This document shows positions 2,303 through 40,448 of a stretch of 46,419 bases of DNA, in pieces. The notes under the pieces were generated by a model, which worked only from the letters and a program-made list of their open reading frames with translations, searched no databases and was not told where the DNA came from. The stretch is from an uncultured Prevotellaceae bacterium. GTDB lineage: Bacteria; Bacteroidota; Bacteroidia; Bacteroidales; Muribaculaceae. The translations under genes were made by a program, and so were the position numbers. The stretch lies in assembly GCA_900320055.1 (NCBI GenBank), contig ONQS01000035.1:1-46419 (forward strand). The letters are read 5' to 3'. Numbering within the stretch: position 1 is the first letter of the stretch; each line of letters begins with the position of its first letter.

Positions 2303-3946
2303 TCATTGCTGGCCGTCGTCGGCTGCGGCAGCGCGATGTTTTGAGCGTCGTTCCTTCTTGCTCGTCTCGCTACTGCTGGTGTCTTTTTCCTCCTTAAGGT
2401 CAATTTCGTTATGGTCTTTGTCGATAACCTTATACTCCAGGTAATTGAGCGACTGGTCGGGTAGGATGCGGAATTTTCGCTTGAATTCCCGTCTCCACTT
2501 CCAGTATTCACTCATCAAGCCCTTCTTGAGGTAGGCGTCGACAAAGGGATGGACATACATAATGAAGTTGTTCACCTTCAGCGTGTGGACAAGGTAATCA
2601 ATCTTGTCCTTCAACTTGTCGGTAAACAGCAGCGAGGGTTGCACTTCTCCTGTGCCGCCACATGACGGGCATGTCTCGGCGGTGGCGATGTCCAGGGCGG
2701 GGCGTACACGCTGGCGCGTAATCTGCATCAGACCGAATTTGCTCAGCGGCAAGATGTTGTGCCGAGCGCGGTCTTTCTGCATCGCTTCGCGCATGTGTTG
2801 GTACAGTTCCTGGCGGTGTTCGGCCTTGGCCATGTCGATGAAGTCGATCACGATAATGCCGCCCATGTCGCGCAGTCGCAGTTGGCGGGCTATCTCGTCC
2901 GCTGCTAGCAGGTTCACGTTCAGTGCATTGCTCTCTTGGTCGGTGCTGGTGCGCGAGCGGTTGCCTGAGTTCACGTCAATCACGTGAAGGGCCTCGGTGC
3001 TCTCTACGATTATGTATGCGCCCGACTTGAAGGATACCGTCTTGCCAAATGATGACTTGATCTGCTTGGTGATGCCGAATTTGTCAAATATGGGCATGTC
3101 ATCACTGTAGAGTTTGACGATATCACTGCGATCGGGGGCTATCTGGGTCACATAGTCGTGGATTTGTTCATACACTTCGGCATTGTTGACTTGAATGCTC
3201 TCAAAATCAGGGTTCAGAATATCCCTTATCTCACCGACGGCACGACTTTCTTCCTCATACACGAGGCTTGGTGGCGTGACTTGTTGCACCTTGGCAATGG
3301 CGTCGTCCCAAGCCTTGATAAGCATCTTGAGTTCGCTGTTCAGTTCTGCGGCGCGTTTGTTCTCGGCCGAGGTGCGGACTATAACCCCGAAGTTCTTCGG
3401 CTTCATGCTCTCGATGAGCCGACGCAAGCGTGTCTTCTCGGCGTGATCCTTAATCTTTTGTGACACCGAGATGCGGTCGTGGAACGGGGTAAGCACCAGA
3501 TAACGGCCCGTGAAGGTGATTTCGGTGGTCAGTCGCGGCCCTTTGGTCGAAATGGGCTCTTTGGCAATCTGGACCAGCAGTTCTTGGCCCTGGGTCAGCA
3601 CGTCATTGATCGTGCCGTGCTTGTTGGTGTCGGGCTGGTTCTTGACCTTGCTGATGCTTGTCGGACGCTTGTTTGCATTTGCGCGCACCGTCTGGATGTA
3701 TTGAGAGAATGTGTTGAACTGTGAACCCAAATCAAGGTAATGAAGGAATGCGTCTTTGGAGTGGCCCACGTTGACAAACGCGGCATTCAGTCCCGGCATC
3801 AGTTTCTTTACCTTGGCAAGGTAGAGGTTGCCCACGGCATAGGAGGCGTCTCTTGTCTCCCGCTGCAATGACACGAGGCGGCCATCTTCGAGCAGTGCCG
3901 TCGTCATGTCACGGGGCGTGACGTCAACTACTAGTTCACTTCTCAT
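2303..3946 (-). CDS. rng: Ribonuclease E/G family endoribonuclease
   Basis: This is a single-strand-specific endoribonuclease for rRNA and mRNA processing, RNase G-like in size (547 residues). The N-terminal S1-like region starts with SELVVDVTPRDMTTALLEDG, followed by GNLYLAKVKKLMPGLNAAFV. The DNase I-like catalytic core has IDVNSG and GGIIVIDFIDM, with the metal-ligand aspartates. The zinc-link CPSCGGTG follows near residue 430. The charged C-terminal tail (KKERRSKHR) is lineage-specific. As is common in Bacteroidota, it lies downstream of the HU gene. The 381-nt gap to the COX24-type gene shows no clear promoter; an imperfect TATATTTA lies upstream of the ATG. Confidence 0.93.
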   Translation of the reverse strand: MRSELVVDVTPRDMTTALLEDGRLVSLQRETRDASYAVGNLYLAKVKKLMPGLNAAFVNVGHSKDAFLHYLDLGSQFNTFSQYIQTVRANANKRPTSISKVKNQPDTNKHGTINDVLTQGQELLVQIAKEPISTKGPRLTTEITFTGRYLVLTPFHDRISVSQKIKDHAEKTRLRRLIESMKPKNFGVIVRTSAENKRAAELNSELKMLIKAWDDAIAKVQQVTPPSLVYEEESRAVGEIRDILNPDFESIQVNNAEVYEQIHDYVTQIAPDRSDIVKLYSDDMPIFDKFGITKQIKSSFGKTVSFKSGAYIIVESTEALHVIDVNSGNRSRTSTDQESNALNVNLLAADEIARQLRLRDMGGIIVIDFIDMAKAEHRQELYQHMREAMQKDRARHNILPLSKFGLMQITRQRVRPALDIATAETCPSCGGTGEVQPSLLFTDKLKDKIDYLVHTLKVNNFIMYVHPFVDAYLKKGLMSEYWKWRREFKRKFRILPDQSLNYLEYKVIDKDHNEIDLKEEKDTSSSETSKKERRSKHRAAAADDGQQ

Positions 3947-4327
3947 CGCAGTTGGTGTGGGTGATATACATATTTGTAATAAGTCATTAAATATATTATA
4001 TACTTTAATATATTATATTGCACGTTGCCACTTGCCTGGCCGTGGTTTCGCTTCGCGGTCGGGAAGCGGGGGCGGCTGCTGGGGGTGTCCCGCTGGACAC
4101 GAGGCGCGTGGTGGTGCGAGGGTGGGGGAGCGGTGGCGAGGGATAGTCTCTTGGGGCTTTTCCACTATCGCCTTGAAATAGTAAGACAGGAACAAACCAA
4201 TCGACGTGATGGTGGCAATTTGGCGGCATTGTGCCGCTCATTGCTTTGACCATCTCTTGCGCCAATTCGTTTGTTCCCGCTATTTCACAGTCGTCATCAG
4301 TGTTAGTCCTCTTAAGCGAGAAGAAGA
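3947..4327. other. Gene-free stretch with a GC-rich patch
   Basis: No convincing gene is seen here. From about 4030 to 4145 the sequence turns strongly GC-rich and G/C-skewed, unlike the AT-rich flanks. It contains the compact palindrome GTGTCC/GGACAC (4085-4100, 4-nt loop). The open frames across it have repeat-like Pro/Arg-rich products and no homology I recognise. Confidence 0.5.
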
Positions 4328-6554: not shown

Positions 6555-7241
6555 ATGAGAACGATAGCAATCATAGTCGCCGGTGGCAGCGGCACGCGCT
6601 TTGGGGCGCAGTTGCCCAAGCAGTTTTTGGAATTGGGCGGATTACCCATCCTGATGCGCACCCTCATGGCTTTTGACCAGGCCCTCGAGGGTGTGGAACA
6701 CGAGATTGTCGTGACTCTTCCCGGCACTCAAGTCGGACTATGGCACAACCTGTGTGAGCAATACGGCTTTGCGGTGCAACATCGCATTGTGCCGGGTGGC
6801 GAGTCGCGCTGGCATAGTGTCAAGAATGCGCTCGACAGCATCGATGATGCCGACAGCGTAGATGTCATCGCAGTCCACGATGGCGTCCGTCCGCTGGCAA
6901 CAGCATCTCTCATCACCCGTGTGCTGGATGCCGCACGCCACAGTGGCGCAGCCATACCAGTGGTGATGCTCAACGACTCGGTGCGGCAAGTCATCGGCGA
7001 GGCCAGCCATGCGCTCAATCGATCCACATTACGCGCGGTGCAGACGCCTCAAGCCTTCGATGCAAGGCTGTTGCTGGATGCCTATTCGCTGCCTTATCAG
7101 CCCGCATTCACCGACGACGCATCGGTTGTCGAATGCCTCGACCGACCCATCACCTTGGTCGACGGTGATCCGCATAACCTGAAGATTACCCGCCCCATGG
7201 ACCTGGCCATGGCAGAATACCTCTTGAACCAAGATGCCTGA
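6555..7241 (+). CDS. ispD: 2-C-methyl-D-erythritol 4-phosphate cytidylyltransferase
   Basis: This enzyme joins MEP and CTP to form CDP-ME in the non-mevalonate isoprenoid pathway. The nucleotide-binding N-terminus IIVAGGSGTRFGAQLPKQF, the VHDGVRPL segment near residue 110 and the TDDASVVE motif near 190 are diagnostic. The length of 228 residues is normal. An in-frame TTG further upstream lies within the -7 box, so the ATG at 6555 is taken. The 3' end overlaps recG by 8 nt, implying coupled expression. Confidence 0.95.
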   Translation: MRTIAIIVAGGSGTRFGAQLPKQFLELGGLPILMRTLMAFDQALEGVEHEIVVTLPGTQVGLWHNLCEQYGFAVQHRIVPGGESRWHSVKNALDSIDDADSVDVIAVHDGVRPLATASLITRVLDAARHSGAAIPVVMLNDSVRQVIGEASHALNRSTLRAVQTPQAFDARLLLDAYSLPYQPAFTDDASVVECLDRPITLVDGDPHNLKITRPMDLAMAEYLLNQDA

Positions 7242-9333
7242 CCTGCGCCGAACCGACATACAGTATCTGCACGGTGTGGGACCTAAACGGGCTGAATTGC
7301 TCCGCAAGGAATTGGGCATCAACACCTATTACGACCTGTTGTACTATTTCCCCTTCCGCTATATCGATCGTAGCGTCATCAACCGTGTGGCCGATCTGCA
7401 TGGCGATGAACCGGCGGTACAGTTGCGGGGGCGTTTCATCACATTCACCACCGCGGGTGAGGGGCGCAAGCGCCGATTGCAAGCCCTGTTCACCGATGGA
7501 TCTGGCACCATCGAGGTGGTATGGTTCAATCGTGTGGCCTCGATACAGAAGACTTATAACACCAACACGCAGTACATCCTCTTCGGCAAGCCATCGATGT
7601 TTAACAACCACTTAAACATCGTCCATCCCGAGGTGGACCCGCTCACTGTCGAGAACGAGACCCAGGGTCTCACTGGCGTGTATAACCTCACCGAGGTGTT
7701 GCGCAACCGCTCTTTCACCTCGCGTGCGATTCACAAACTCATTGTCGGTCTGCTTAATACACCGGCGGTGCAACACGTTGCCGACACGCTTCCTCCCGAA
7801 CTGATCAACCGTTTCCACCTCATGTCGCTGGCCGAGGCTCTCCACAACATCCATCTGCCCAGTAATCAGCAAGCCTTGCAGCGGGCGCAGTTCCGGCTCA
7901 AGTTTGAGGAACTCTTCTTCCTGGAACTCAATATACTGCATTACATCAAGGGCAGTAGCCGCCGCCTGGTGGGACATGTGTTCGGTCGTGTGGGAGCCTA
8001 CTTCCACGACTTTTATAACAACATCCTCCAGTTTCCCCTCACGGGTGCGCAGAAGCGCGTGATCCGCGAGATGCGTCACGACATGGGCAGCGGCAAGCAG
8101 ATGAACCGACTCTTGCAGGGCGACGTGGGCAGCGGCAAGACCATAGTGGCATTTATGACGGCTCTGATTGCGCTCGACAATGGTTATCAAGCCTGCATCA
8201 TGGCTCCCACCGAGATCCTGGCTGGGCAGCACCTCGATACGATCAAGCCCCTGGCCGATGCCATTGGTGTCAAGGTGGCTCTCTTGACGGGATCTACACG
8301 CAAGAGGGAGCGGACCATGATCCACGAGGCGCTGATGAGTGGAGAGTTGCAGATCCTTATCGGCACCCATGCGCTGATCGAGGACACGGTGCAGTTCCGC
8401 AATCTCGGGCTGGCGATTATCGATGAGCAGCACCGCTTCGGCGTCGCCCAGCGTGCACGCCTTTGGAGCAAAAACCGCGTCGCACCGCCCCATGTGCTGG
8501 TCATGACGGCCACTCCCATCCCGCGCACGCTGGCTATGACCGTCTATGGCGACCTGGATGTGTCGGTCATCGACGAGTTGCCGCCAGGACGCAAGCCAGT
8601 CACCACAGTGCTGCGTCATGAGCCCGACCGGTTCAAGATGTACCAGTTTGTCGGATCCCAGTTGCGACAGGGGCGCCAAGCCTACATTGTATACCCCCTC
8701 ATCGAGGAAAACGAGAAACTCGATCTGCATGCTTTGGAGCAGGGCTATGAGCAGGTGAGTGAAGTGTTCAGACAGTATCGCGTGGCGATGGTGCACGGGC
8801 GCATGAAGCCCGACGAGAAGGACCACCAGATGATGCTCTTTGCCAGTGGACAAGCCAAGATTCTCGTGGCAACTACTGTCATCGAGGTTGGCGTCAACGT
8901 GCCTAATGCTTCGGTTATGGTCATTGAGGATGCCGAGCGCTTTGGCCTGTCCCAGTTGCACCAGTTGAGGGGCAGGGTAGGGCGTGGCGCAGACCAGAGT
9001 TATTGCATTCTGATGGCTCGCACCGACCTGAGCCGGGACACCCGTCACCGACTTCAAGTGATGACCCAGACCAACGATGGTTTTGTCGTGGCCGAGGAGG
9101 ATATGAAACTGCGAGGCCCCGGCGACATGGAGGGCACGCAACAGAGCGGCATCGCCTTCAACCTGCACATCGCTAATCTGGCGCAGGACGGCCAAATCAT
9201 TCAGATGGCACGCAATGCCGCCGAGGACTATCTGCGTGACGATCCGCAGATGGATACGCCCTGGGGCCGTAAGATGGCGGCACATATCCGGGAAATCTTT
9301 GACAAACAGACCAATTGGGGACTGATCAGTTAG
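7234..9333 (+). CDS. recG: ATP-dependent DNA helicase RecG
   Basis: This helicase remodels branched DNA such as stalled forks and Holliday junctions. The 699-residue protein has an N-terminal OB-fold wedge region (about 60-150) and a two-lobed superfamily 2 helicase. Walker A is GDVGSGKT near residue 295, DEQH lies in IIDEQHRFG near 395, and motif III is TATPIPRTLAMT. Motif VI is QLRGRVGRG near 575. The C-terminal part LRGPGDMEGTQQSG is family-specific. It overlaps ispD by 8 nt. The dockerin protein that follows begins a new, unrelated unit after 63 nt. Confidence 0.96.
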   Translation: MPDLRRTDIQYLHGVGPKRAELLRKELGINTYYDLLYYFPFRYIDRSVINRVADLHGDEPAVQLRGRFITFTTAGEGRKRRLQALFTDGSGTIEVVWFNRVASIQKTYNTNTQYILFGKPSMFNNHLNIVHPEVDPLTVENETQGLTGVYNLTEVLRNRSFTSRAIHKLIVGLLNTPAVQHVADTLPPELINRFHLMSLAEALHNIHLPSNQQALQRAQFRLKFEELFFLELNILHYIKGSSRRLVGHVFGRVGAYFHDFYNNILQFPLTGAQKRVIREMRHDMGSGKQMNRLLQGDVGSGKTIVAFMTALIALDNGYQACIMAPTEILAGQHLDTIKPLADAIGVKVALLTGSTRKRERTMIHEALMSGELQILIGTHALIEDTVQFRNLGLAIIDEQHRFGVAQRARLWSKNRVAPPHVLVMTATPIPRTLAMTVYGDLDVSVIDELPPGRKPVTTVLRHEPDRFKMYQFVGSQLRQGRQAYIVYPLIEENEKLDLHALEQGYEQVSEVFRQYRVAMVHGRMKPDEKDHQMMLFASGQAKILVATTVIEVGVNVPNASVMVIEDAERFGLSQLHQLRGRVGRGADQSYCILMARTDLSRDTRHRLQVMTQTNDGFVVAEEDMKLRGPGDMEGTQQSGIAFNLHIANLAQDGQIIQMARNAAEDYLRDDPQMDTPWGRKMAAHIREIFDKQTNWGLIS

Positions 9334-13672: not shown

Positions 13673-16048
13673 TTACTCGCCCTTCAGTATCTTGTCGATG
13701 ACCATGTTGACGTCGGCAATGTTGATCTCGCCGTCACCATTCACGTCGGTGATCGCAATGGCGCTTGGGGTGTCGATGCCTAGTAGCAGGACGTTGACCA
13801 CCTCGCTTACATCCGAGATATTGATCTCTCCGTCGTGGTTCACGTCGCCGCGCTCCCAGTCGATAAGCACACGCATGCGGTTGCTCCACGGCGATAGGGT
13901 GCCGTCGGTGTATGCCGTCTGCACGCGCAGGCCGTAGTCGCCAGGCTGCATGTCGTTGAGCGTGAATGAGGTATCTGTGATGCCTTCAACATACAGGGCA
14001 TGGGTCAAATCCACAGGAGTGTAATCGTCGCCGGCAAACACCTCGACTTGGCACAGCACCACGCGCTTGCCGGTGGCTGTGGTCAGTCTGATGTGGGCTT
14101 CGCCAGTAGCGGGGCATGGCAGCAGCAGGCATTGCTCGGTCTCCTCATTGCTCACCACGATGGTGGTGTCATGATCGCCGCAACTGATCTTGAGCGGTGC
14201 CGACGCGTCGTTGCCACTCGAGTGCGCGATCACCTTGATGGTGGCCTTGCCATGGTTGCCATACATGTCTAGCGCGGGTGTCTCGATCCAGCCCTTGCTC
14301 TTCGATGTACCCAGTATCACGTTGGTGTCGCTGCGGTACACCTTGCTGCCGCTCCAGCCGGGCAGGGTGGTGATTTCATCGAGTTTGGATGCCCAGTCCG
14401 TTGTGCTGGTGCCTGAGTATTCGCTCTTGTCAAACGACTCATGCAGTCTTAGTTCGTTATAGAGCACGCGGGCCACTTCCAGGTTGTAACTGCTCACGTT
14501 GTGTCGCGGTGTGGCATCCTGCCACTCTGCGCGGAACGACGATGGCGTGATATCAGCAGGGGCAAGCATCACGGGGTCGTAAGTCTCAAGCAGGCATTCG
14601 CCTGTCAGGTGGATGACCTTGTCATCTGCCCCCTCACTGCGCAGCGTGATGGTTGCCGTGTGCATGCCGATTGCTGTCGGGCTATAGGTGATGATCAAGT
14701 GCTGGCCTTGCTGAGCCGCGGTTTGGCTGATGTGGTCGGTGCTGAGGGTAAAGTAGCCCGTGGCATCGTCCAGTGTCACGCTGATGTCTGACGTGAGTTT
14801 CACTCCCTTGACATTGATGGCCTTATAGGCAGTGCTGTCCACATAGGCGCGGGCGGTTAGCCTCGACAGGCCGGCCTTGATGGTGGGACCGCTGGCGGGT
14901 GGCTCGATGCCGATCAGCAGTTGTTGATCCACGTTGAAGTACTCACCTCCGCCCTTGAAGGCGTTGAGTGCGTAATAGGCATTGCCGGTTCCGCTCCAGC
15001 CCCAGTTGATGTGGTAGGTGTCGTCGCTGGCATCATAACCGTCGATGTTAAACGCGTGACCCGACCAGGTCGCGGTGTAGGCACACATGACGATCGGGCG
15101 TTGGTTCACCAGTTCCTCTTGGATGATGGCTCCCCATTCCTCGTCACTATAGTTCACTCCGCTCCACCAGTCCTCCTTCGACACCAGTTCCACGTCACTG
15201 TCATAGCCAAAGCGTTTGATGGTCGACAATATTCTGTAACTGCTGGCACCGCTGCCGTCGGGCGAATAGTCCATATGCTCCGATTGGCCCACGTAGCGCA
15301 TGAGTTTGGCCACGGCGTTGGCTTGGTCATCGTTGTAACCGCCATGGTAGTAACGGTCGAGCATATTGTCCCAGTCAAAGGTGGTCGACGGCAATGTTTC
15401 CAGCGAGATGTTGTGGGTCTGTGTGGTGTAACTCGGTACGGATGATGTCGGTCCGGTAGGATACTTCCAGTAGTAGAAGACCATGGCGGTCGAGGTGGCG
15501 GCGCAGCCGGTCACGCTGTGATGGCCGTTCACCTCAGGGCACTCGCGATTGTAGGGCTCGCCTTGGTCCCAAAGTGCCGTGAGCAATGGTTCCACACTCT
15601 CATAGCCCTGTGACGACACACGGCGTGGACCGCCCACGTTACTCTCGACTGACAGATCGGGGTGGGACAGCAGGTAGGCCATTTGACCCTGATACAATTC
15701 GAGCCAAACTCGCATGTTGCAGGGGATATTGTTCATGTCAAGGGGCGCATCACCATGGGCGAGAATTTCGCGCGCTCGGTCATCGCCCGAGACAATCAGG
15801 TAACTGTCGCTGGTGTTGAAGATGTAGTAGAGCGCATCGCCCGCGCCAGTCGTCCCCCTCTCGGTGTGCACCAGCCGCACTTGGGCGCTGGCGGGGGCAT
15901 GCTTCGGCCCGATGGTGGCATGCGAGGCAGCATAGCGCTGAGCAGTGGCCTGGGCTGTAGTGACATCGATTGGTGCCGATACGGCCTGCATCGCTGCAAG
16001 CGCTGTGATGGCTACAAACAGAATTCTCTTGGCTGACTTGGTGTTCAT
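13673..16048 (-). CDS. C10 (streptopain-type) cysteine protease with fibronectin-like and dockerin modules
   Basis: This is an exported 791-residue protease precursor. A signal peptide (1-25) is followed by an inhibitory propeptide (about 26-150). The C10 papain-like domain has catalytic C182 in TGCAATSTAM and H331 in SGHAFNIDGYD, plus the conserved HINWGWSG. Beta-sandwich regions follow. The C-terminus has two dockerin repeats (DVNHDGEINISDVSEVVNV and DVNGDGEINIADVNMVIDKI). Both catalytic residues are present, so activity is likely. Relatives include SpeB and the Prevotella interpain. A TATATTTG -7 box lies about 120 nt upstream. No linked inhibitor gene is seen. Confidence 0.9.
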   Translation of the reverse strand: MNTKSAKRILFVAITALAAMQAVSAPIDVTTAQATAQRYAASHATIGPKHAPASAQVRLVHTERGTTGAGDALYYIFNTSDSYLIVSGDDRAREILAHGDAPLDMNNIPCNMRVWLELYQGQMAYLLSHPDLSVESNVGGPRRVSSQGYESVEPLLTALWDQGEPYNRECPEVNGHHSVTGCAATSTAMVFYYWKYPTGPTSSVPSYTTQTHNISLETLPSTTFDWDNMLDRYYHGGYNDDQANAVAKLMRYVGQSEHMDYSPDGSGASSYRILSTIKRFGYDSDVELVSKEDWWSGVNYSDEEWGAIIQEELVNQRPIVMCAYTATWSGHAFNIDGYDASDDTYHINWGWSGTGNAYYALNAFKGGGEYFNVDQQLLIGIEPPASGPTIKAGLSRLTARAYVDSTAYKAINVKGVKLTSDISVTLDDATGYFTLSTDHISQTAAQQGQHLIITYSPTAIGMHTATITLRSEGADDKVIHLTGECLLETYDPVMLAPADITPSSFRAEWQDATPRHNVSSYNLEVARVLYNELRLHESFDKSEYSGTSTTDWASKLDEITTLPGWSGSKVYRSDTNVILGTSKSKGWIETPALDMYGNHGKATIKVIAHSSGNDASAPLKISCGDHDTTIVVSNEETEQCLLLPCPATGEAHIRLTTATGKRVVLCQVEVFAGDDYTPVDLTHALYVEGITDTSFTLNDMQPGDYGLRVQTAYTDGTLSPWSNRMRVLIDWERGDVNHDGEINISDVSEVVNVLLLGIDTPSAIAITDVNGDGEINIADVNMVIDKILKGE

Positions 16049-23917: not shown

Positions 23918-23949
23918 TTTGACAAAATGCGGAACTTTACCTATATTTG
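23918..23949 (+). promoter_or_regulatory. Promoter of the dockerin protein gene at 24024
   Basis: TTTG (23918-23921), a 20-nt spacer and TATATTTG (23942-23949). The leader is about 70 nt. Nothing else is seen in the 312-nt gap apart from the fabG terminator. Confidence 0.75.
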
Positions 23950-28117: not shown

Positions 28118-28426
28118 ATGGAAGAGAAAAATTTGAACGAGGCACAGGTCGCCGAGCAGACCACCTCACAGGAGAACGTGAACGAGCAGGTCAACGAAAT
28201 GACCGAGTTGGAAATCCTCAAGGGCGAGAACGAGCTACTGCAGAAGCAGTACGAGAGCGAGAAGAAGTCTTGCCTCCGCTACTACCGCCAGATGAACATG
28301 CTGAAGCAAGCCATCACCAAGCTCACCGAAGAGGGGAAGGTCACCGAGGAGGATGTCGTGAAGGCAGTCCTTGCTGGTCAGAACCTGATGAGCCTTGAAG
28401 ACCTGCTTTTCACCCTGGCGGACTAA
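28118..28426 (+). CDS. Small acidic coiled-coil protein, first early gene
   Basis: This 102-residue protein has a Gln/Glu-rich N-terminus (NEAQVAEQTTSQENVNEQ) and a long predicted coiled coil (EILKGENELLQKQYESEKKS, about 33-75). No family is recognised. As first gene after the early promoter and repressor operator it could act early in the lytic switch, but nothing in the sequence shows how. It is followed by a 595-nt gene-free, highly structured stretch. Confidence 0.7.
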   Translation: MEEKNLNEAQVAEQTTSQENVNEQVNEMTELEILKGENELLQKQYESEKKSCLRYYRQMNMLKQAITKLTEEGKVTEEDVVKAVLAGQNLMSLEDLLFTLAD

Positions 28427-28439
28427 CCACTAAGCACAT

Positions 28440-28800
28440 TCCGAAGTTTGGTCAACTTCACGGCCTCTCGCGATGAGGGCCGCCGCAGTAGCACAAGAGC
28501 AGTGCCGCCCATGCCCGGGCAAGATGGAGAGTGCGAGTCCTCCCTGCGGAACACAGCAGAGTTCCTTGACATGATGGCTGCAAGATAGTAGAAGGCTACA
28601 GACTTGCGACAAATCCAGCCGCCCGAGCTGGTGGTGTGACCAGGCACCGTGAACCTGGCGGGGACAATCGTAACTGGCCCCGAGAACCCAGTGACGAGTA
28701 AGAACGAAAACGACAATAGTATCTGCCATACAACATATACGATTGAGATTTGCTCATAAGGTCCCGCAAGGGACACCCCGCTAAGCCGATGGGGGTACGA
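28440..28800 (+). ncRNA. Candidate structured RNA region A
   Basis: This stretch has no plus-strand gene but a dense chain of perfect stems. They include GAAGTT/AACTTC (28443-28459), a small cloverleaf (28483-28549), GCAAG/CTTGC enclosing GTAG/CTAC (28580-28607) and CCAGC/GCTGG (28615-28631). CCAGG/CCTGG (28640-28658) and GTCCC/GGGAC with a GCAA tetraloop (28761-28774) follow. A long-range 8-bp stem CAATCGTA/TACGATTG (28665-28672 with 28738-28745) encloses ACTGG/CCAGT. This argues for a folded RNA rather than coding DNA. The family is not recognised; some stems exclude each other. Confidence 0.55.
28483..28550 (+). ncRNA. Mini tRNA-like cloverleaf
   Basis: Stems occur in tRNA order: CCGCAG/CTGCGG (28483-28488 with 28544-28549), TA linker, GCAC/GTGC, one base, GCCC/GGGC (6-nt loop), 5-nt variable region and GGAG/CTCC. 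The last loop contains GCGAGT. At 67 nt and with 4-bp arms it is smaller than a normal tRNA. It is unlikely to be a decoding tRNA. Confidence 0.4.
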
Positions 28801-28844
28801 TCTATGTCCTGGAGGGGCATGGTGGGCCAAAGGAACTGGCGGTC

Positions 28845-28923
28845 GGGACGGTAGCTCGGATAATAACTTGGTAGAGCGCTCGTGATGAACGAGAGGTTGG
28901 CGGTTCGAATCCGTCCTGTCCCA
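28845..28923 (+). tRNA. tRNA-like gene with abnormal D-loop and anticodon loop
   Basis: The acceptor GGGACGG/CTGTCCC (one G-U), D stem GCTC/GAGC, stem CTCGT/ACGAG, 5-nt variable region AGGTT and T arm GGCGG-TTCGAAT-CCGTC are all in place, with discriminator A at 28923. But the D-loop has 16 nt and the anticodon loop only 5 (GATGA). With two more bases the loop would resemble tRNA-Ile (GAT). It is either a decayed phage tRNA or a tRNA mimic; no CCA is encoded. Confidence 0.6.
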
Positions 28924-29021
28924 CACCTAATTTGTGTGTTTTTCATGGTATTTATAAGTGCTCCCGCCCATGTCGTGAGACACAGCGGGTTCTTTTGATA
29001 ACAACTAACATTTTACGATAT

Positions 29022-32644: not shown

Positions 32645-33087
32645 TAATCCACCTGCGAAAAGACCAGGGCCACGTCACCGACCAAAGGACGCTTGACCAG
32701 TGCATGGCTTGGCTCCCGAATGGTGACTATGTGGCGACCATTGAGACCAGGGCGCAATGGGAGAAGCGGCAACCCCGCTCACTCAGCCAGAACGCCCTGT
32801 TCTATGTGTGGTGCTCCTCGATCGCCAACTTCTTCAACGCGACCTATGGCGATGATCACTGGAACAAGGACAACGTTCACGACCTTTTCTGTGAGATGTT
32901 CAAGCAGCCTTTCGTGCTGCCTAACGGCCAGGTCATCGACAAGTGGGTGGAGACATCGAAGCTCACCAAGAAGCAGATGACCGAGTTCATGAACAAGATC
33001 CAGTCCTATATGGCCACCGAGCACGGGGCAACCGTACCGCTGCCCGATGATGACAAGTACAGGGACTTCCAACTGGAATACAGTTAA
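32641..33087 (+). CDS. NinB-like recombination protein (tentative)
   Basis: This 148-residue protein resembles lambda NinB (Orf). The segment EKRQPRSLSQNALFYVWCSS (about 40-59) matches the conserved RxLxQNaxxhaxl motif. HDLFCEMFKQPFVLPNGQVI follows, then the SKLTKKQMTEFMNKIQSYMA helix. NinB binds single-stranded DNA and helps recombination, which suits the preceding ssb and annealase genes. It is the last gene before the 1.4-kb structured region and is followed by a perfect terminator. Confidence 0.5.
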   Translation: MIIHLRKDQGHVTDQRTLDQCMAWLPNGDYVATIETRAQWEKRQPRSLSQNALFYVWCSSIANFFNATYGDDHWNKDNVHDLFCEMFKQPFVLPNGQVIDKWVETSKLTKKQMTEFMNKIQSYMATEHGATVPLPDDDKYRDFQLEYS

Positions 33088-33127
33088 TTTTTTCATAACT
33101 ACTTAACGAGACTTTTGCATTTTCTAT

Positions 33128-33156
33128 CCACCGGCCACCTGTGAAGGCCGCCGTGG
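33128..33156 (+). ncRNA. Stem-loop at the start of structured region B
   Basis: CCAC (33128-33131) and GGCC (33133-33136) pair with GGCC (33146-33149) and GTGG (33153-33156). It follows an imperfect -7 box (GACTTTTG, 33110-33117) that could start region B. Confidence 0.35.
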
Positions 33157-33202
33157 GTTTTCCAATGTTTTAAGGTTATTAGTTAATGTTTAAAGATGGT
33201 TT

Positions 33203-33226
33203 ACCCCGCTCGTGCAGCGGGGTTTT
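33203..33226 (+). terminator. Intrinsic terminator after the NinB-like gene
   Basis: ACCCCGCT (33203-33210) and AGCGGGGT (33216-33223) form a perfect 8-bp stem with a 5-nt loop, followed by TTT. It separates the upstream operon from the structured region. Confidence 0.85.
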
Positions 33227-33243
33227 CATGGCGGTGACGGTCG

Positions 33244-33306
33244 GCGCGTGAAAAATGAACTCTTGAAAAAGCCGCGCGTCCCTGGTCCGATTCCAGGGCT
33301 GCCTCA
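33244..33306 (+). ncRNA. T-arm-like hairpin element
   Basis: CCCTGG and CCAGGG (33280-33285, 33293-33298) enclose the 7-nt loop TCCGATT, nearly the same T-loop (TCCRATT) as in the tRNA-like RNA at 34338. GCGCG/CGCGC (33244-33277) lies just upstream. The acceptor-like pairing is poor. It may be a decayed tRNA. Confidence 0.35.
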
Positions 33307-33354
33307 CAGTAATTTCTTTTTCATAATGATTAAAGATTTGGAGTTATTACATTT

Positions 33355-34071
33355 CATCACCCCTGCCGTGAGGCACGGGTGAGGCAACACCTGGCCCGGG
33401 AAGGGCGAAATCATACTAAGTGCTTTTAAAGGTTTGTTAATACAGATAGATACCCTGCCAGCCGTGAGGCTCGCAGGTGGACATTACCCGTCCTGCTGGG
33501 GTACTTGCAGGTTCTTCGTGGATGGGAGTGTCGGTAACGCGCTCCATTGCTCAATGAGGCTCCGGACATCCACGAACCCCATCACTGCTGGTCGGGGTGA
33601 GCGGTAACGCCACCCTCGGAATAAATGATAACAGGCTTCGGCCTGCCACGCTCAAAAAGTCTCGCACGGCCAGCAGAACCCATCACATCGACACGGGCAA
33701 GACTTGTCTTGCTGTCCGCCACCCGTGGCGATGAAATTAAAGCGCGCCAGCGGTTTAATCAGCAATTATGCGTTGACGATGAGTATCACAGGCATGGCGC
33801 GCTATCAGAGCCGATGTTGGCGGCTTCGGCTCAACCCATCACACGGCAGGATGGCGGGAACGGCAACGCCCCGCTGAACAACAACCACAGCCGCAAGGCT
33901 GTGCTCTCGAGAACATAGGACATCCTGCCTAATCATCACGCCGAGGGTGCCCAGTAACCGTATCGCAAGGCCTGGGGATAACATCTCACCACCCTCGGCG
34001 AACTCATAGGCCTACCACAGCCATGGGAGGGCGGGGCCTCACCCCTATAACGTTCCAACGCCCTCCCTTTT
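33355..34071 (+). ncRNA. Candidate large multi-domain noncoding RNA (region B)
   Basis: About 700 nt without a credible gene hold at least nine domains closed by perfect stems. Closing stems: 33358-33381; 33454-33477; 33515-33524 with 33567-33576 (10 bp); 33585-33591 with 33670-33676; 33686-33697 with 33722-33733; 33741-33749 with 33795-33803 (9 bp); 33808-33814 with 33826-33832. Then 33845-33853 with 33921-33929 (9 bp, three-way junction); 33939-33949 with 33990-34000 (11 bp); and 34025-34033 with 34059-34067 plus TTTT, a likely terminator. Inner hairpins carry GTGA, GTAA, GCAA and TTCG tetraloops. CATCAC recurs before five domains. The style recalls GOLLD/ROOL RNAs of phages; family membership is untested. 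Confidence 0.65.
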
Positions 34072-34084
34072 CATCGCATCCTTG

Positions 34085-34185
34085 CAAGGTGGCCGAGTTG
34101 CCGGCCTTAACGCAGCGCTTTTTGTAAAAGAGTTGGAGTGGCAGCGAGCCACGGAAGACCCGCTTGGTCGAGTACCAGGCCGCGT
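34085..34185 (+). ncRNA. Class-II tRNA-like sequence lacking an acceptor stem
   Basis: GGTGGCCGAGTTGCCGGCC resembles a Ser/Leu-type D arm. CTTTTTGTAAAAG resembles an anticodon arm with TGT (Thr). GTGGC/GCCAC (34138-34152) could be the long variable arm and CTTGG-TCGAGTA-CCAGG (34163-34179) a T arm. No matching acceptor strands are found. It is probably a decayed tRNA or a mimic. Confidence 0.35.
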
Positions 34186-34337
34186 AACATGAACGGTATT
34201 TTCCACATCTAATGTGGTGCGTTTTATCGCAGTGACATTTATCGCAGTGGTACGCTACAAGTTACCTAAAGGTATGATTGAAAGAATTGACATTTTAATT
34301 CACTTAATCCACCCTCCCTGCTGTGAAGCGATGGCAC

Positions 34338-34463
34338 GGGGATGAAGACCTGCACGATGGGCAATGCAGGTAGCAGATTGGCGAGGGAGAGACTCGCACC
34401 ATTACCACTTGAGCCAATCTGCGAAGTAGCGATGAGCAGCGGGTCCAATTCCCGCCATCCCCG
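34338..34463 (+). ncRNA. 126-nt tRNA-like RNA with expanded arms
   Basis: A 7-bp acceptor GGGGATG/CATCCCC (34338-34344 with 34456-34462) and a T arm GCGGG-TCCAATT-CCCGC (34439-34455) are perfect, with discriminator-like G at 34463 and CAA after it. In place of D and anticodon arms there are CCTGCA/TGCAGG (34349-34370) and a 10-bp stem GCAGATTGGC/GCCAATCTGC (34373-34422). The latter contains a small GAG/CTC hairpin. The length and arms exclude a normal tRNA. An insertion in a tRNA or a tRNA mimic is possible. Confidence 0.55.
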
Positions 34464-34493
34464 CAACAAACACATTTTCTTTCCGTGTTTCGG

Positions 34494-34533
34494 GTCCCGT
34501 GCGCTGCCAGTAACCTCGGCCACGGGACTTTTC
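34494..34533 (+). terminator. Terminator at the end of structured region B
   Basis: GTCCCGTG (34494-34501) and CACGGGAC (34521-34528) form a perfect 8-bp stem, followed by TTTTC. Confidence 0.75.
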
Positions 34534-34535
34534 TA

Positions 34536-34550
34536 AAGTCAAACATTTAA
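34536..34550 (+). promoter_or_regulatory. Leader element copy 2 before the HNH gene
   Basis: AAGTCAAACATTTAA lies 17 nt before the ATG at 34567, directly after a terminator. No -7 box is seen between the two, so expression may depend on read-through. Confidence 0.65.
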
Positions 34551-34566
34551 TGAAATATCAACATAT

Positions 34567-35223
34567 ATGGCAAGAAAAATAATTCCAGACCTCAGTGGTC
34601 AGAGATTTGGTCGCTATCTCGTTCTTCGAAAAGACGAAAACAGATGCGACTCCAGAGGGCGACATGATTTCTATATTTGCAAGTGTGATTGTGGCGCAAT
34701 TCGTTCTGTCAAAAAGTATGATCTTTTATGCGGAACAAGCAAAAGCTGTGGATGTGCGACAAAAGAACGTATTAAAGCCGCTGATTTCAAACATGGCTAT
34801 TCGAGGACGCGACTTTATCACATTTACCAAATGATGAAATACCGCTGCTATAATCCAAAATATTCAAGTTTTAAGGAATATGGCGGTCGTGGTGTAACTG
34901 TCTGCGATGAGTGGCTTTCAGACCCTATGAACTTCATCCGCTGGGCGCTCAATAACGGCTATGATGATACGTTAAGCATCGACCGGATTGATGTGAATGG
35001 GAACTACGATCCTAATAATTGCAGGTGGGCAACCAGTAAGGCCCAGCAACGTAACAAGAGAAAAGCCTTTTTAATCGTTTTTGATGGAGTTGAGCGGTCG
35101 TTTGCTGACGTATGCGATGAGAACGGTGTTAGCAGAAGAAACGCTTGGCAACACTGGATGAGACACAAGGACAAAACAAAACTTGTCGAATACATAAAAA
35201 GTCATGCGCTTTCAGCTTCGTAA
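34567..35223 (+). CDS. HNH homing-type endonuclease
   Basis: This 218-residue protein is of the phage HNH/AP2 type. An N-terminal zinc-type part (YICKCDCGAIRSVKKYDLLC, then SKSCGCATKER) resembles DNA-binding domains of homing endonucleases. The core RLYHIYQMMKYRCYNPKYSS, GGRGVTVCDEWL and SIDRIDVNGNYDPNNCRWAT is the widely spread phage HNH module. The C-terminal KAFLIVFDGVERSFADVCDE is a target-recognition-type repeat. Its place directly after the structured RNA region and its many mobile relatives suggest a selfish gene. It overlaps the helicase gene by 20 nt. Confidence 0.8.
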   Translation: MARKIIPDLSGQRFGRYLVLRKDENRCDSRGRHDFYICKCDCGAIRSVKKYDLLCGTSKSCGCATKERIKAADFKHGYSRTRLYHIYQMMKYRCYNPKYSSFKEYGGRGVTVCDEWLSDPMNFIRWALNNGYDDTLSIDRIDVNGNYDPNNCRWATSKAQQRNKRKAFLIVFDGVERSFADVCDENGVSRRNAWQHWMRHKDKTKLVEYIKSHALSAS

Positions 35224-38498: not shown

Positions 38499-40448
38499 AT
38501 GAACGAGACAACCAAGAAACAATTCGACGAGCTGAAGGCCAAGAACCCGGACGCAGTCCTGCTATTCCGCGTGGGAGACTTCTACGAGACCTACTACGAT
38601 GACGCAGTCACGGTGTCTGATGTCTGCGGCCTTACGCTCACCAGGGTTGACTCCACATTCCACTACAAGGAGCCAGCCTACATGTGTGGTTTCCAGCACC
38701 ATGCGCTCGACACCTACCTGCCCAAGCTGGTGCGTGCAGGACAGCGCGTGGCCATCTGCGACCAACTGAATGAACCAACGGCCAAAGAGCCGAAAACAAG
38801 TCAAACATTTAATTCAAAGCGAAACATGGAAAAGAAGAATGAAATCAAGAATGTGCCCATCAGCGCCATTCAGCCGAGTCCTCGAAACCCTCGCAAGACC
38901 TTTGACGAGGTTAGCCTCCAGGAACTCGCCGACAACATCAAGCAACAAGGATTGTTGCAGCCTATCACCGTGAGGCCCATCATTGACCTGGCCGACCAGG
39001 AAGGCAACCTCTGCAAGTATGAGGTTGTATGCGGTGAACGCAGGTTCCGAGCCGTCAAGATGAACGGCGACGAGACCATCCCCTGCATTGTGAGAGACCT
39101 CGACGACGAGACCGCCTATGAGGTGATGATTACGGAGAACCTACAACGTAAGGACATTGACCCGATGGAAGAGGCGTTTGCCTTCAATGAACTTGTCAAG
39201 GCCGGGAAGTCCTGTGATGAGATTGCCCAGCGTTTCGGCAAGCCTCTGCGCTTCGTTCAGTCGCGCGTCAAACTCGCAACCCTCATCCCCGAGGCGAAGA
39301 AACTCGTAACCGATGGGAAAATGGACATCGGTTGTGCGCAGATCATCTGCAAACTCAATGAGAGTGACCAGAAGCGCTTCATTGAAGCCTACGAGTACCG
39401 AGGTGAATACAACAAAATGCAGGCAAAGCAGTTCACCGATGGCATTTTCCGTTACTTGAGAAATGCCCCCTGGGACAATGACTACACTGGTGGCTGCAAT
39501 CGTAAATGCGCTGATTGCCCCTTCAACAGCAACAATGCTGGCTGCTTGTTCTATGACATGTCCGGTGATGGCAGGTGTACCAATGCCGAGCAGTTCAGGG
39601 TTAAGCTCAACCAGTTCTACTATGACCTCATCAACAACGAGCGAGATGTGCTGCTCAGAGCTGATGAGGACTTTGTGAAGGACGGAACCTGCATTGTGTC
39701 TTCGTGCTCCTATGGCGACAAGGAACTGTGCGAGAAAATTCTCAAGCCGTTCAGGGATGAAGGCTTCAAGGTCGTTGATCGTTCCGATGTGTTCGACTGG
39801 GGCGAACTTGACGAGGAGGACGATGCCGAGGAAATCAACGAGAACAAGGACAAGATGTACCGCTGCGTGATAGTGTCCTCATATTACAGGGGTAACCTTG
39901 AAGTACGCATCGCATGGCTTGACTTCAAGGGCGAACCCGAAGAGGTTGACCCAACCGCTGTGGAGGCGAGGAAACTGGTGGCAAAGAGAGAACATCTCAT
40001 CACCCAGCGCAGCGAAGCCGTTCTCAAGGCTCTTCGTGAAGTCATCGAGAAGGGCACTGAATGTGACACCGAGGACCTATACGAGTCCGAGAGGGTTGCT
40101 CTCTGCACCAAAATACTGATGAGCCTTCCGTACCCAACGCGCCACGATCTTGGCGCAGACGATGCGAAGAAGTCGGCCAAACTTGCACTTGCCGGATTGA
40201 GGAAAGATGGCGATGGGTATCTGTTCAAGACCTTGCGCCTCTTCATCCAGTGCACCCTCATGGGGCATAATGACTATGAAGGTGTCGGCATGGCAACTGT
40301 TGAGAAGGTCGCCGAACAATGGGACTATGATAGTGCCGTTGATGCGAAAGCAAAAGCCATGCACAAGTTCGAGAAGCGCATCCAAGATGTAGAGTCAAAA
40401 CTCACCGCCCTGGGCTACAATGCCGAGGGCAAGAAACTCGACTTCTGA
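38499..40448 (+). CDS. MutS domain I fused in frame to a ParB-family protein
   Basis: Residues 1 to about 95 match MutS domain I, the mismatch-reading domain ([40 protein letters not shown]). Residues from about 110 are a ParB/Spo0J N-terminal domain ([33 protein letters not shown]) followed by a helix-turn-helix ([20 protein letters not shown]). A Cys-rich stretch ([17 protein letters not shown]) and a long unassigned C-terminus follow. The join is encoded by a copy of the AAGTCAAAC leader, so the ORF may be two genes that lost a stop. A ParB-only product from ATG 38826 is likely. Function in partitioning or gene control is unknown. Confidence 0.75.
38798..38815 (+). promoter_or_regulatory. 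Leader element copy 3, inside the MutS/ParB frame
   Basis: AAGTCAAACATTTAATTC is identical to the leader of module copy 2. It is read in frame as part of [11 protein letters not shown], 10 nt before the ATG at 38826. Confidence 0.75.
38826..40448 (+). CDS. ParB-family protein, internal-start form
   Basis: This is the probable second product of the preceding frame: 540 residues from ATG 38826 ([20 protein letters not shown]). The start follows a full leader element, and the sequence around it (GAAACATGGAAAAGAA) is almost the same as at the DUF1071 gene start (29769). The domains are as given for the long form, without MutS domain I. Which form dominates cannot be told from the sequence. Confidence 0.6.

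Follow-up and report, generated by a model that had tools for sequence, protein, structure and literature searches.

A chain of predicted structured RNA modules in a noncoding island among phage genes of an uncultured Prevotellaceae bacterium

What lies between a NinB-like gene and an HNH endonuclease gene on a phage-related contig of an uncultured Prevotellaceae bacterium, where an initial annotation saw no credible ORF and proposed a large folded phage RNA? The window analyzed here (46,419 nucleotides) is one contig of a 2.6-Mb genome in 73 contigs, and its gene content, including integrase, SSB, NinB-like and helicase genes, is that of a phage or prophage. The main noncoding island is followed by the HNH gene and then by a DEAD/ResIII helicase gene (Table 1). 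The HNH endonuclease gene, identified by PHROGs, sits at the helicase start, and because it is absent in L002, L003, G283 and G336, in which the island abuts the helicase gene directly, it looks like a later insertion.

A protein-coding role for the main island was rejected, and on this point the initial annotation was borne out. The longest ORF listed in the island has 97 aa; none of two plus-strand and two minus-strand ORFs compared matched Pfam up to an E-value of 1, and the two plus-strand ORFs had no match in PHROGs at 1e-3. A tblastn comparison found no convincing conserved frame among the relatives: the 97-aa ORF was matched in short pieces only, and a 64-aa ORF (34342-34536) was partly conserved, being open in L003 with a 16-residue gap, open over its last 36 residues in G336, broken in L002 and matched over 10–12 residues in the other relatives. 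Elsewhere in the window, a 649-aa protein (38499-40448) is an odd fusion of MutS domain I (E-value = 1e-25) at the start with a following ParB N-terminal domain and HTH, and a 699-aa protein (7234-9333) with a helicase-like part matches phrog_34613 (unknown).

The main island contains 11 perfect stems of at least 8 bp (loops up to 100 nt), compared with a mean of 1.8 and a maximum of 8 in 500 dinucleotide-Markov sequences, and six of at least 9 bp, compared with a mean of 0.47 and a maximum of 4 in 500. In a scan stepped by 300 bases, the two stem-richest segments (10 and 9 stems) overlap the island, the next having 7 and the median being 3. The long stems named in the initial annotation are present, as are the stem closing its three-way junction (bead D), GUAA, GCAA and UUCG loops, and the GC hairpin of its likely terminator. 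The mean folding z-score in the island is -1.8 on the plus strand and -1.5 on the minus strand, and -0.4 in the other plus-strand segments; the excess is modest and without strand specificity, and the second island shows little excess. Rfam gave no match at the gathering cut-off in the whole window and none up to an E-value of 5 in 33080-34570. GOLLD, ROOL, HEARO, group I and II introns, tmRNA and RNase P, with which a comparison had been proposed, were among the models without a match, and there is thus no ground to assign the region to GOLLD, ROOL, introns or tmRNA.

Table 1. Features of the two noncoding islands (positions in the window)
Feature	Positions	Strand	Remarks
Main island	33088-34566		between NinB gene (ends 33087) and HNH gene (34567-35223)
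AU-rich segment starting TTTTTTCAT, then hairpin CCACCGG...CCGTGG with GUGA loop	33088-33157	+	sequence, motif count
GC hairpin, then TTTTCAT	33203-33223	+	8-bp stem
T-arm-like hairpin CCTGG-TCCGATT-CCAGG plus GCTGCCT	33281-33304	+	similar stretch in L053
AU-rich seed segment CTTTTTCATAATGATTAAAG..., weakly FopS-like	33317-33349	+	antisense to ATGAAAAAG starts
CATCAC, GUGA-type hairpins, AU-rich CTAAGTGCTTTTAAAGG segment	33355-33480	+	repeat D5
Probable H-type pseudoknot, ACCC/GGGT and CCTGC/GCAGG	33486-33511	+	pattern
Bead A: 10-bp helix, inner GUAA hairpin	33515-33576	+	alignment
Bead B: multi-helix junction, GUAA and UUCG hairpins	33585-33676	+	
Module C: two hairpins	33685-33803	+	33741-33803 is a perfect 9-bp stem
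Bead D: three-way junction	33845-33929	+	perfect 9-bp stem
Bead E: 11-bp helix	33939-34000	+	perfect stem; also in L054 and, by eye, L174
Terminator-like GC hairpin, then TTTTCAT	34025-34071	+	perfect 9-bp stem, 34025-34067
E1: two covarying hairpins, linker GGAAGAYCC	34132-34188	+	
T1, tRNA-like	34338-34462	+	acceptor GGGGATG/CATCCCC, D-like arm, T-arm
Perfect 10-bp stem	34373-34422		
Terminator-like hairpin GTCCCGTG...CACGGGAC TTTT	34494-34535	+	before HNH and helicase genes
Second noncoding island	28427-29000		tRNA-like, then FopS-like sRNA
Second-island tRNA-like	28845-28922	+	acceptor and T-arm pair, odd anticodon arm
FopS-like sRNA: GTGTTTTTCATGGTATT and GUGA hairpin	28936-28999	+	Rfam RF04319

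The structure of the E1 element is conserved and covarying. The initial annotation had counted this stretch (34085-34185) among its tRNA-like RNAs, which E1 is not, and had named covariation as support for an RNA; such covarying pairs were found among the E1 relatives. Of seven E1 sequences compared, BLAST supplied five, and the other two (G283b and L051) were picked by eye. In this set, compensatory changes on both sides occur at eight of the 13 predicted pairs, a helix count that, like those for the beads and T1 members given below, is biased upward by picking by eye. A model of E1 (R1) matched five of 101 genomes of the genus (E-value ≤ 0.01), five of 397 of the family (≤ 0.005; one match, in G094, inside an apparent gene) and one of 393 of the order (≤ 0.001), namely the window's own; it recognized relatives outside its training set in G207 (E-value = 4.6e-7) and G237 (3.7e-5), and also viral ones. 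In 61 loci, chosen largely by the E1 pattern, it found 33 matches. In an alignment of 25 distinct rows, which was fitted to the model and includes some chance rows, 96.1% of the cells pair, compared with 69.0% after shuffling and at most 43.8% after sliding; double-sided changes occur at nine of nine pairs, and further pair types are not above the shuffled level (174/500). Among the matches to R1, those in L176 (G094), L127 and L130 look like coding or chance when their sequences are read, and the weak viral rows L140, L144, L145, L153, L164 and L172 were judged so by score; all nine were kept in the 25-row count.

Eleven beads, picked by eye, form eight of eight outer-helix pairs with seven distinct 5' arms, and none of the 90 cross combinations pairs fully. 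The inner hairpin has seven pairs in ten aligned beads (70 cells, none broken; six pairs with double changes), and the outer helix, which was misaligned by MAFFT, has one to three broken cells of ten at eight of nine pairs. By our reading, seven of the 11 beads fold alone with a GNRA hairpin; the GUAA inner hairpin of bead A comes from the alignment and is missing from its own minimum-energy fold. GNRA beads are often separated by CATCAC in the relatives. When CATCAC was taken as a border of segments between successive motifs (counted without L051 and L054), a helix of at least 7 was found in four of 17 segments versus 24 of 272 cross pairs, and the motif is therefore no clean delimiter of helices. 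The pattern of the probable pseudoknot occurs in five viral stretches (L054 and L057 among them) and five genome contigs, the two sets overlapping; four of these contigs are of uncultured Prevotellaceae bacterium (RUG362, RUG412 twice and RUG755), which we take to be cow-rumen genomes. Its stem 1 differs in L120 and L122, and single-sequence folds form one stem or the other, never both. A match of the pattern in Pseudomonas looks like chance, and another pattern, TTATGCG, gave 22 stretches with no relative of the island among them.

A search with NinB gave six viral loci. Most of the island is kept in L002, without 33681-33839 and 33931-34061, and in L003, without 33229-33480 and 33681-34024; modules come and go as wholes between close relatives. 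The module at 33355-33480 is common to L002 and L054 (also L174, by eye), module C in G336 differs with compensating changes (by eye), and ORFs lie between the modules in L054 and G336. A DNA search gave matches in seven of the 101 genus genomes: by inspection, the island is syntenic in the window's own genome, G283 and G336, whereas the island of G333 has another location, by our reading a phage that carries an ERF-like gene; the matches of 33308-33347 in G135, G305 and G324 are gene starts and not islands. Among 18 loci scanned by element patterns, nine (the window, L002, L003, L050 of G283, L054, L174 and the near-identical L120, L133 and L148) show the order pseudoknot, bead, E1; L122 has the same order by eye, missed by the patterns, and the other eight lack at least one element or have another order. 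T1 lies behind E1 in the window, L002, L003, L054 and L174, and ahead of it in L051, L121, L137 and L175. A compact form of about 340 nt (L120, L133, L148 and L122) consists of an AU-rich segment with a hairpin, ATCAC, pseudoknot, bead, CATCAC, E1 and a GC hairpin. It sits in another kind of prophage, perhaps Mu-like; of five proteins of L120 compared with Pfam, three matched AAA_22, DnaB_C (below the cut-off) and Phage_tail_S, and two had no match. Among named phages, no DNA match was found to the main island, to the second island or to 321 nt taken from the compact form, and no description of such an array was found among the articles retrieved in searches on phage tRNAs and tRNA-likes, ornate RNAs, T4 RNAs, FopS, TMERs and phage sRNAs.

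It is well supported that the main island represents a new RNA class, built as a chain of separate modules rather than as one fixed fold. The suggestion of a possibly new class of folded phage RNA gains from the lack of an Rfam family, the covariation in E1 and the element order common to different prophages.

T1 had been recognized as tRNA-like in the initial annotation (34338-34463), and it does form seven of seven acceptor pairs and five of five T-arm pairs of a canonical tRNA. The loop of its D-like arm holds ATGGGC, and a 10-bp helix stands in place of the anticodon arm; an ordinary anticodon arm is absent, ARAGORN gave no call in the window, and no Rfam tRNA was found in the main island. 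As judged from its sequence, T1 is a tRNA-like element without a usable anticodon. Six members keep the acceptor, the D-like arm with the ATGGGC loop and the T-arm, and the segment between the latter two varies among relatives. Their helices, with hand-picked arms, comprise 94 Watson-Crick pairs, six G.U, no A.C and one other; in the T1 alignment, broken cells occur at nine of 17 pairs, mostly via the row of L051. In L050 (G283:C70, about 14465-14640), T1 is split by an inversion, seen by eye, that is flanked by short inverted repeats; this is either an assembly artefact or a phase switch.

A strict finder for an acceptor plus a T-arm gave one plus-strand match in each of the two noncoding islands of the window and no other match on either strand. 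It gave nothing in 40 simulated contigs, and at least one match in 10 of 14 island pieces. The second-island element scores 26.4 bits with the Rfam tRNA model, below the cut-off of 29, and the T-arm-like hairpin of the main island has no convincing nearby 5' acceptor strand. ARAGORN assigned two-base anticodons (6-nt loops) to four tRNA-likes of the relatives, two in L052 and one each in L053 and L048; one kind of these occurs in both L052 and L053. Other tRNA-likes have a 10-nt loop (L051, by eye) or a single arm (L054/L174), and L004, L049 and L052 have ordinary tRNA calls as well. In L175 and L162, an AU-rich TTTTTCAT segment lies within the tRNA-like and replaces the anticodon arm, with seven and six of seven acceptor pairs, respectively; the laboratory 'tRNA scaffold' offers a comparison for such an arrangement.

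A report on FopS (PMC11697453) describes these Bacteroides sRNAs as about 65–70 nt long, pairing with the start region of susC-like mRNAs and blocking translation, and as bound by RbpB, with RbpB CLIP peaks in their 5' part; FopS sequence is also mentioned there in a Caudovirales phage. The FopS-like element of the second island scores 21.5 bits against RF04319 (cmscan), below the cut-off of 56, and the main island gave no match to this model up to an E-value of 5. The conserved FopS seed GUGUUUUUCAUGGUAUU is exact over 17 nt at 28936, whereas the main island has just a part of it. At the FopS 5' end, host FopS loci agree with the second island in 20 of 20 nt, and an AU-rich FopS-like element that scores below the cut-off in the window's own genome is identical in 40 of 40 nt to the island of L150. 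A tRNA-like directly precedes a FopS-like element in the window, L002 and L003 (in L003 by eye). At E-values ≤ 1, the FopS model matched in 12 of 14 genomes or records, with two matches above the cut-off, both on bacterial-genome contigs outside islands; since a control set was also matched in three of 14 (one above the cut-off), the weak rows prove little. Matches to the Rfam models BTnc231 and G-CSF_SLDE were below their cut-offs. Two adjacent sub-cut-off FopS-like matches lie at L125 of the window's own genome (G000:C61:22000-22800), where the 40 nt shared with L150 are found.

The motif UUUU(U)CAT is antisense to AUGAAAA start codons, as in the FopS logic of Bacteroides. In 18 island pieces (14,042 bases), selected by eye and in part related to one another, the plus strand has 30 copies of it and the minus strand none, against an expectation of 2.25, and 16 of the 18 pieces have at least one; the rest of the window has one on the plus and nine on the minus strand. 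No TTTTCAT is present in the island of L122, and some of the T runs may be terminator tails. In 10 of 19 pieces, no shuffle out of 300 reaches the score of the FopS 5' consensus; in the main island 5/300 do, and in four pieces at least 20. For inserts of the tRNA-likes, this score is reached by 1/300 (L175), 2/300 (L162), 2/300 (L006) and 9/300 (L137), and is chance-like in L005 (122/300) and L136 (226/300), as it is in the compact form (L148, 130/300). The sequence ATGAAAAAGAAATTA, antisense of 33310-33324, has six other sites in the window's own genome with at most one mismatch, compared with none for a reversed-pattern control; five of them start ORFs of at least 105 aa (one is maybe an internal Met), and four of the five starts look signal-peptide or lipoprotein-like by eye. 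This agrees with the FopS logic, but because AUGAAAA is a usual start of secreted proteins, most UUUUUCAU segments would seem to target secreted proteins. The start-codon-antisense motif and the link to FopS had not been foreseen in the initial annotation.

The exact Bacteroidetes -7 box of the sigma-ABfr promoter, TANNTTTG, is absent from the plus strand of 33088-34566 and 28400-29020, and going upstream on that strand, a full promoter-like match is first reached at 23918; read-through transcription and processing are therefore assumed, and the island is probably read on the plus strand along with the surrounding genes. Our preferred reading, which we put forward tentatively, is that the island may be transcribed as one array of antisense RNAs that are directed at start codons in the manner of FopS, the tRNA-likes and hairpins serving for processing and stability. 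Its AU-rich UUUUCAU segments would pair with host mRNAs for secreted and envelope proteins at their AUGAAAA start region and block translation. The tRNA-likes would supply cut sites for RNase P and RNase Z and protected ends, so that their anticodon arms would be free to vary, and the beads and pseudoknot could stabilize the pieces or dock a protein. Against this stand the absence of a promoter near the island, the weak FopS likeness of the main island, the compact form being no better than chance in this respect, the lack of any role for the beads and E1 beyond stability, and the sparse distribution of E1 in the genus and order genomes.

Other functions were also considered. Phage tRNAs with anticodon-loop mutations have been proposed to evade tRNA-targeting defences (PMC10264068), and the tRNA-likes, whose anticodon loops are missing, enlarged or of 6 nt, might likewise shield the phage from host anticodon nucleases or absorb tRNA-targeting defence proteins, the rest being passengers. 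The two-base ARAGORN anticodons fit this idea; T1, however, has no visible anticodon and could therefore hardly substitute for a cleaved tRNA, and the beads, E1 and the UUUUCAU motif are left unexplained; we regard decoys as unlikely. It is likewise unlikely that the AU-rich segments act as a sponge that would titrate host RbpB or compete for FopS partners and so relieve repression: the AU-rich blocks that host loci and phage islands have in near-identical form and the position of the RbpB CLIP peaks speak for it, but the rest of the island would be left unexplained. A leader that controls the helicase operon downstream of it in cis, at the level of transcription or translation, would suit the island's direct contact with the helicase gene in L002, L003, G283 and G336 and the terminator-like hairpin at 34494-34535; the same elements, however, stand beside other genes in ERF-type and other prophages, and we regard a leader as quite improbable.

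GOLLD and ROOL are large, helix-rich RNAs of phages and prophages found near tRNAs, and the initial annotation had likened the region to them. Its size, stem density, GNRA loops and terminal tRNA-like would agree with a single ornate particle, but whole modules are gained and lost, ORFs lie between them and a compact form exists, and we regard one fixed particle as very unlikely. The region differs from GOLLD and ROOL also in its variable length and in having no Rfam match. Least probable are hairpins acting as DNA, as single-stranded recombination or replication sites beside the SSB, NinB and helicase genes; the position in a recombination and replication gene block and the folding excess on both strands would fit, whereas the exceptions in T1 helices (G.U but no A.C), the strand-specific UUUUCAU motif and the tRNA-like anatomy speak against this reading.

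Extending the array reading, it is conceivable, though doubtful, that rumen Bacteroidales phages carry polycistronic regulatory-RNA arrays, in which non-decoding tRNA-likes would be both scaffold and cut site for sRNAs antisense to host envelope-gene starts. The tRNA-likes of L175 and L162 would then be a natural version of the tRNA scaffold, and E1, the beads and T1 would be new RNA families. If true, this would add several unlisted structured RNA families for a group of phages that has been little studied, connect phages with an established Bacteroides sRNA circuit, provide a natural non-decoding tRNA chassis for small RNAs, and suggest cleavage and removal tests for why phages carry tRNA-like genes.

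Among known systems, FopS/GibS (RF04319), as described in PMC11697453, resemble the islands in an AU-rich 5' segment of the UUUUUCAUGGUAUUAG type, a GUGA-loop hairpin and many copies per genome; the islands differ in their sub-cut-off (second island) or missing (main island) match, in having no exact -7 box, and in being embedded in an array with tRNA-likes, a pseudoknot and beads. T1 differs from the phage tRNAs that evade anticodon nucleases by altered anticodon loops (PMC10264068) in that its anticodon arm is replaced or lost. Like the tRNA-like domain of tmRNA (RF00023), T1 has an acceptor and a T-arm without an anticodon, but the T1 of L054 scored only 17.2 bits (E-value = 0.007) against the cut-off of 47. 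In the T1 of L121 (about 3863-3952, reverse-strand numbering), the third acceptor pair is G.U, which marks alanine tRNAs and tmRNA, whereas the other five T1 compared have G-C. Phage T4 also makes stable RNAs without an assigned role, C and D, from a region of tRNA genes. The tRNA-miRNA RNAs (TMERs) of gammaherpesviruses and the tRNA-snoRNA transcripts of plants link a non-decoding or plain tRNA to a regulatory RNA, and tRNA-processing enzymes cut them; these belong to other domains of life, no homology is claimed, and processing is here only predicted.

Two further RNAs were noticed. An alignment of L004, L006, L007, L008, L037, L038, L051 and L052 (A4) contains a recurrent RNA with TTTCAT, an AAGTCG/AAGCCG box and ACTGG, the closing stem of which shows some compensatory changes and also broken cells. 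In the second island, an RNA at 28427-28850 with GAGTTCCTTGACATGATGGC shares motifs, by eye, with RNAs near the tRNA-likes in L038/L053, L048 and L052, and is possibly another large structured phage RNA.
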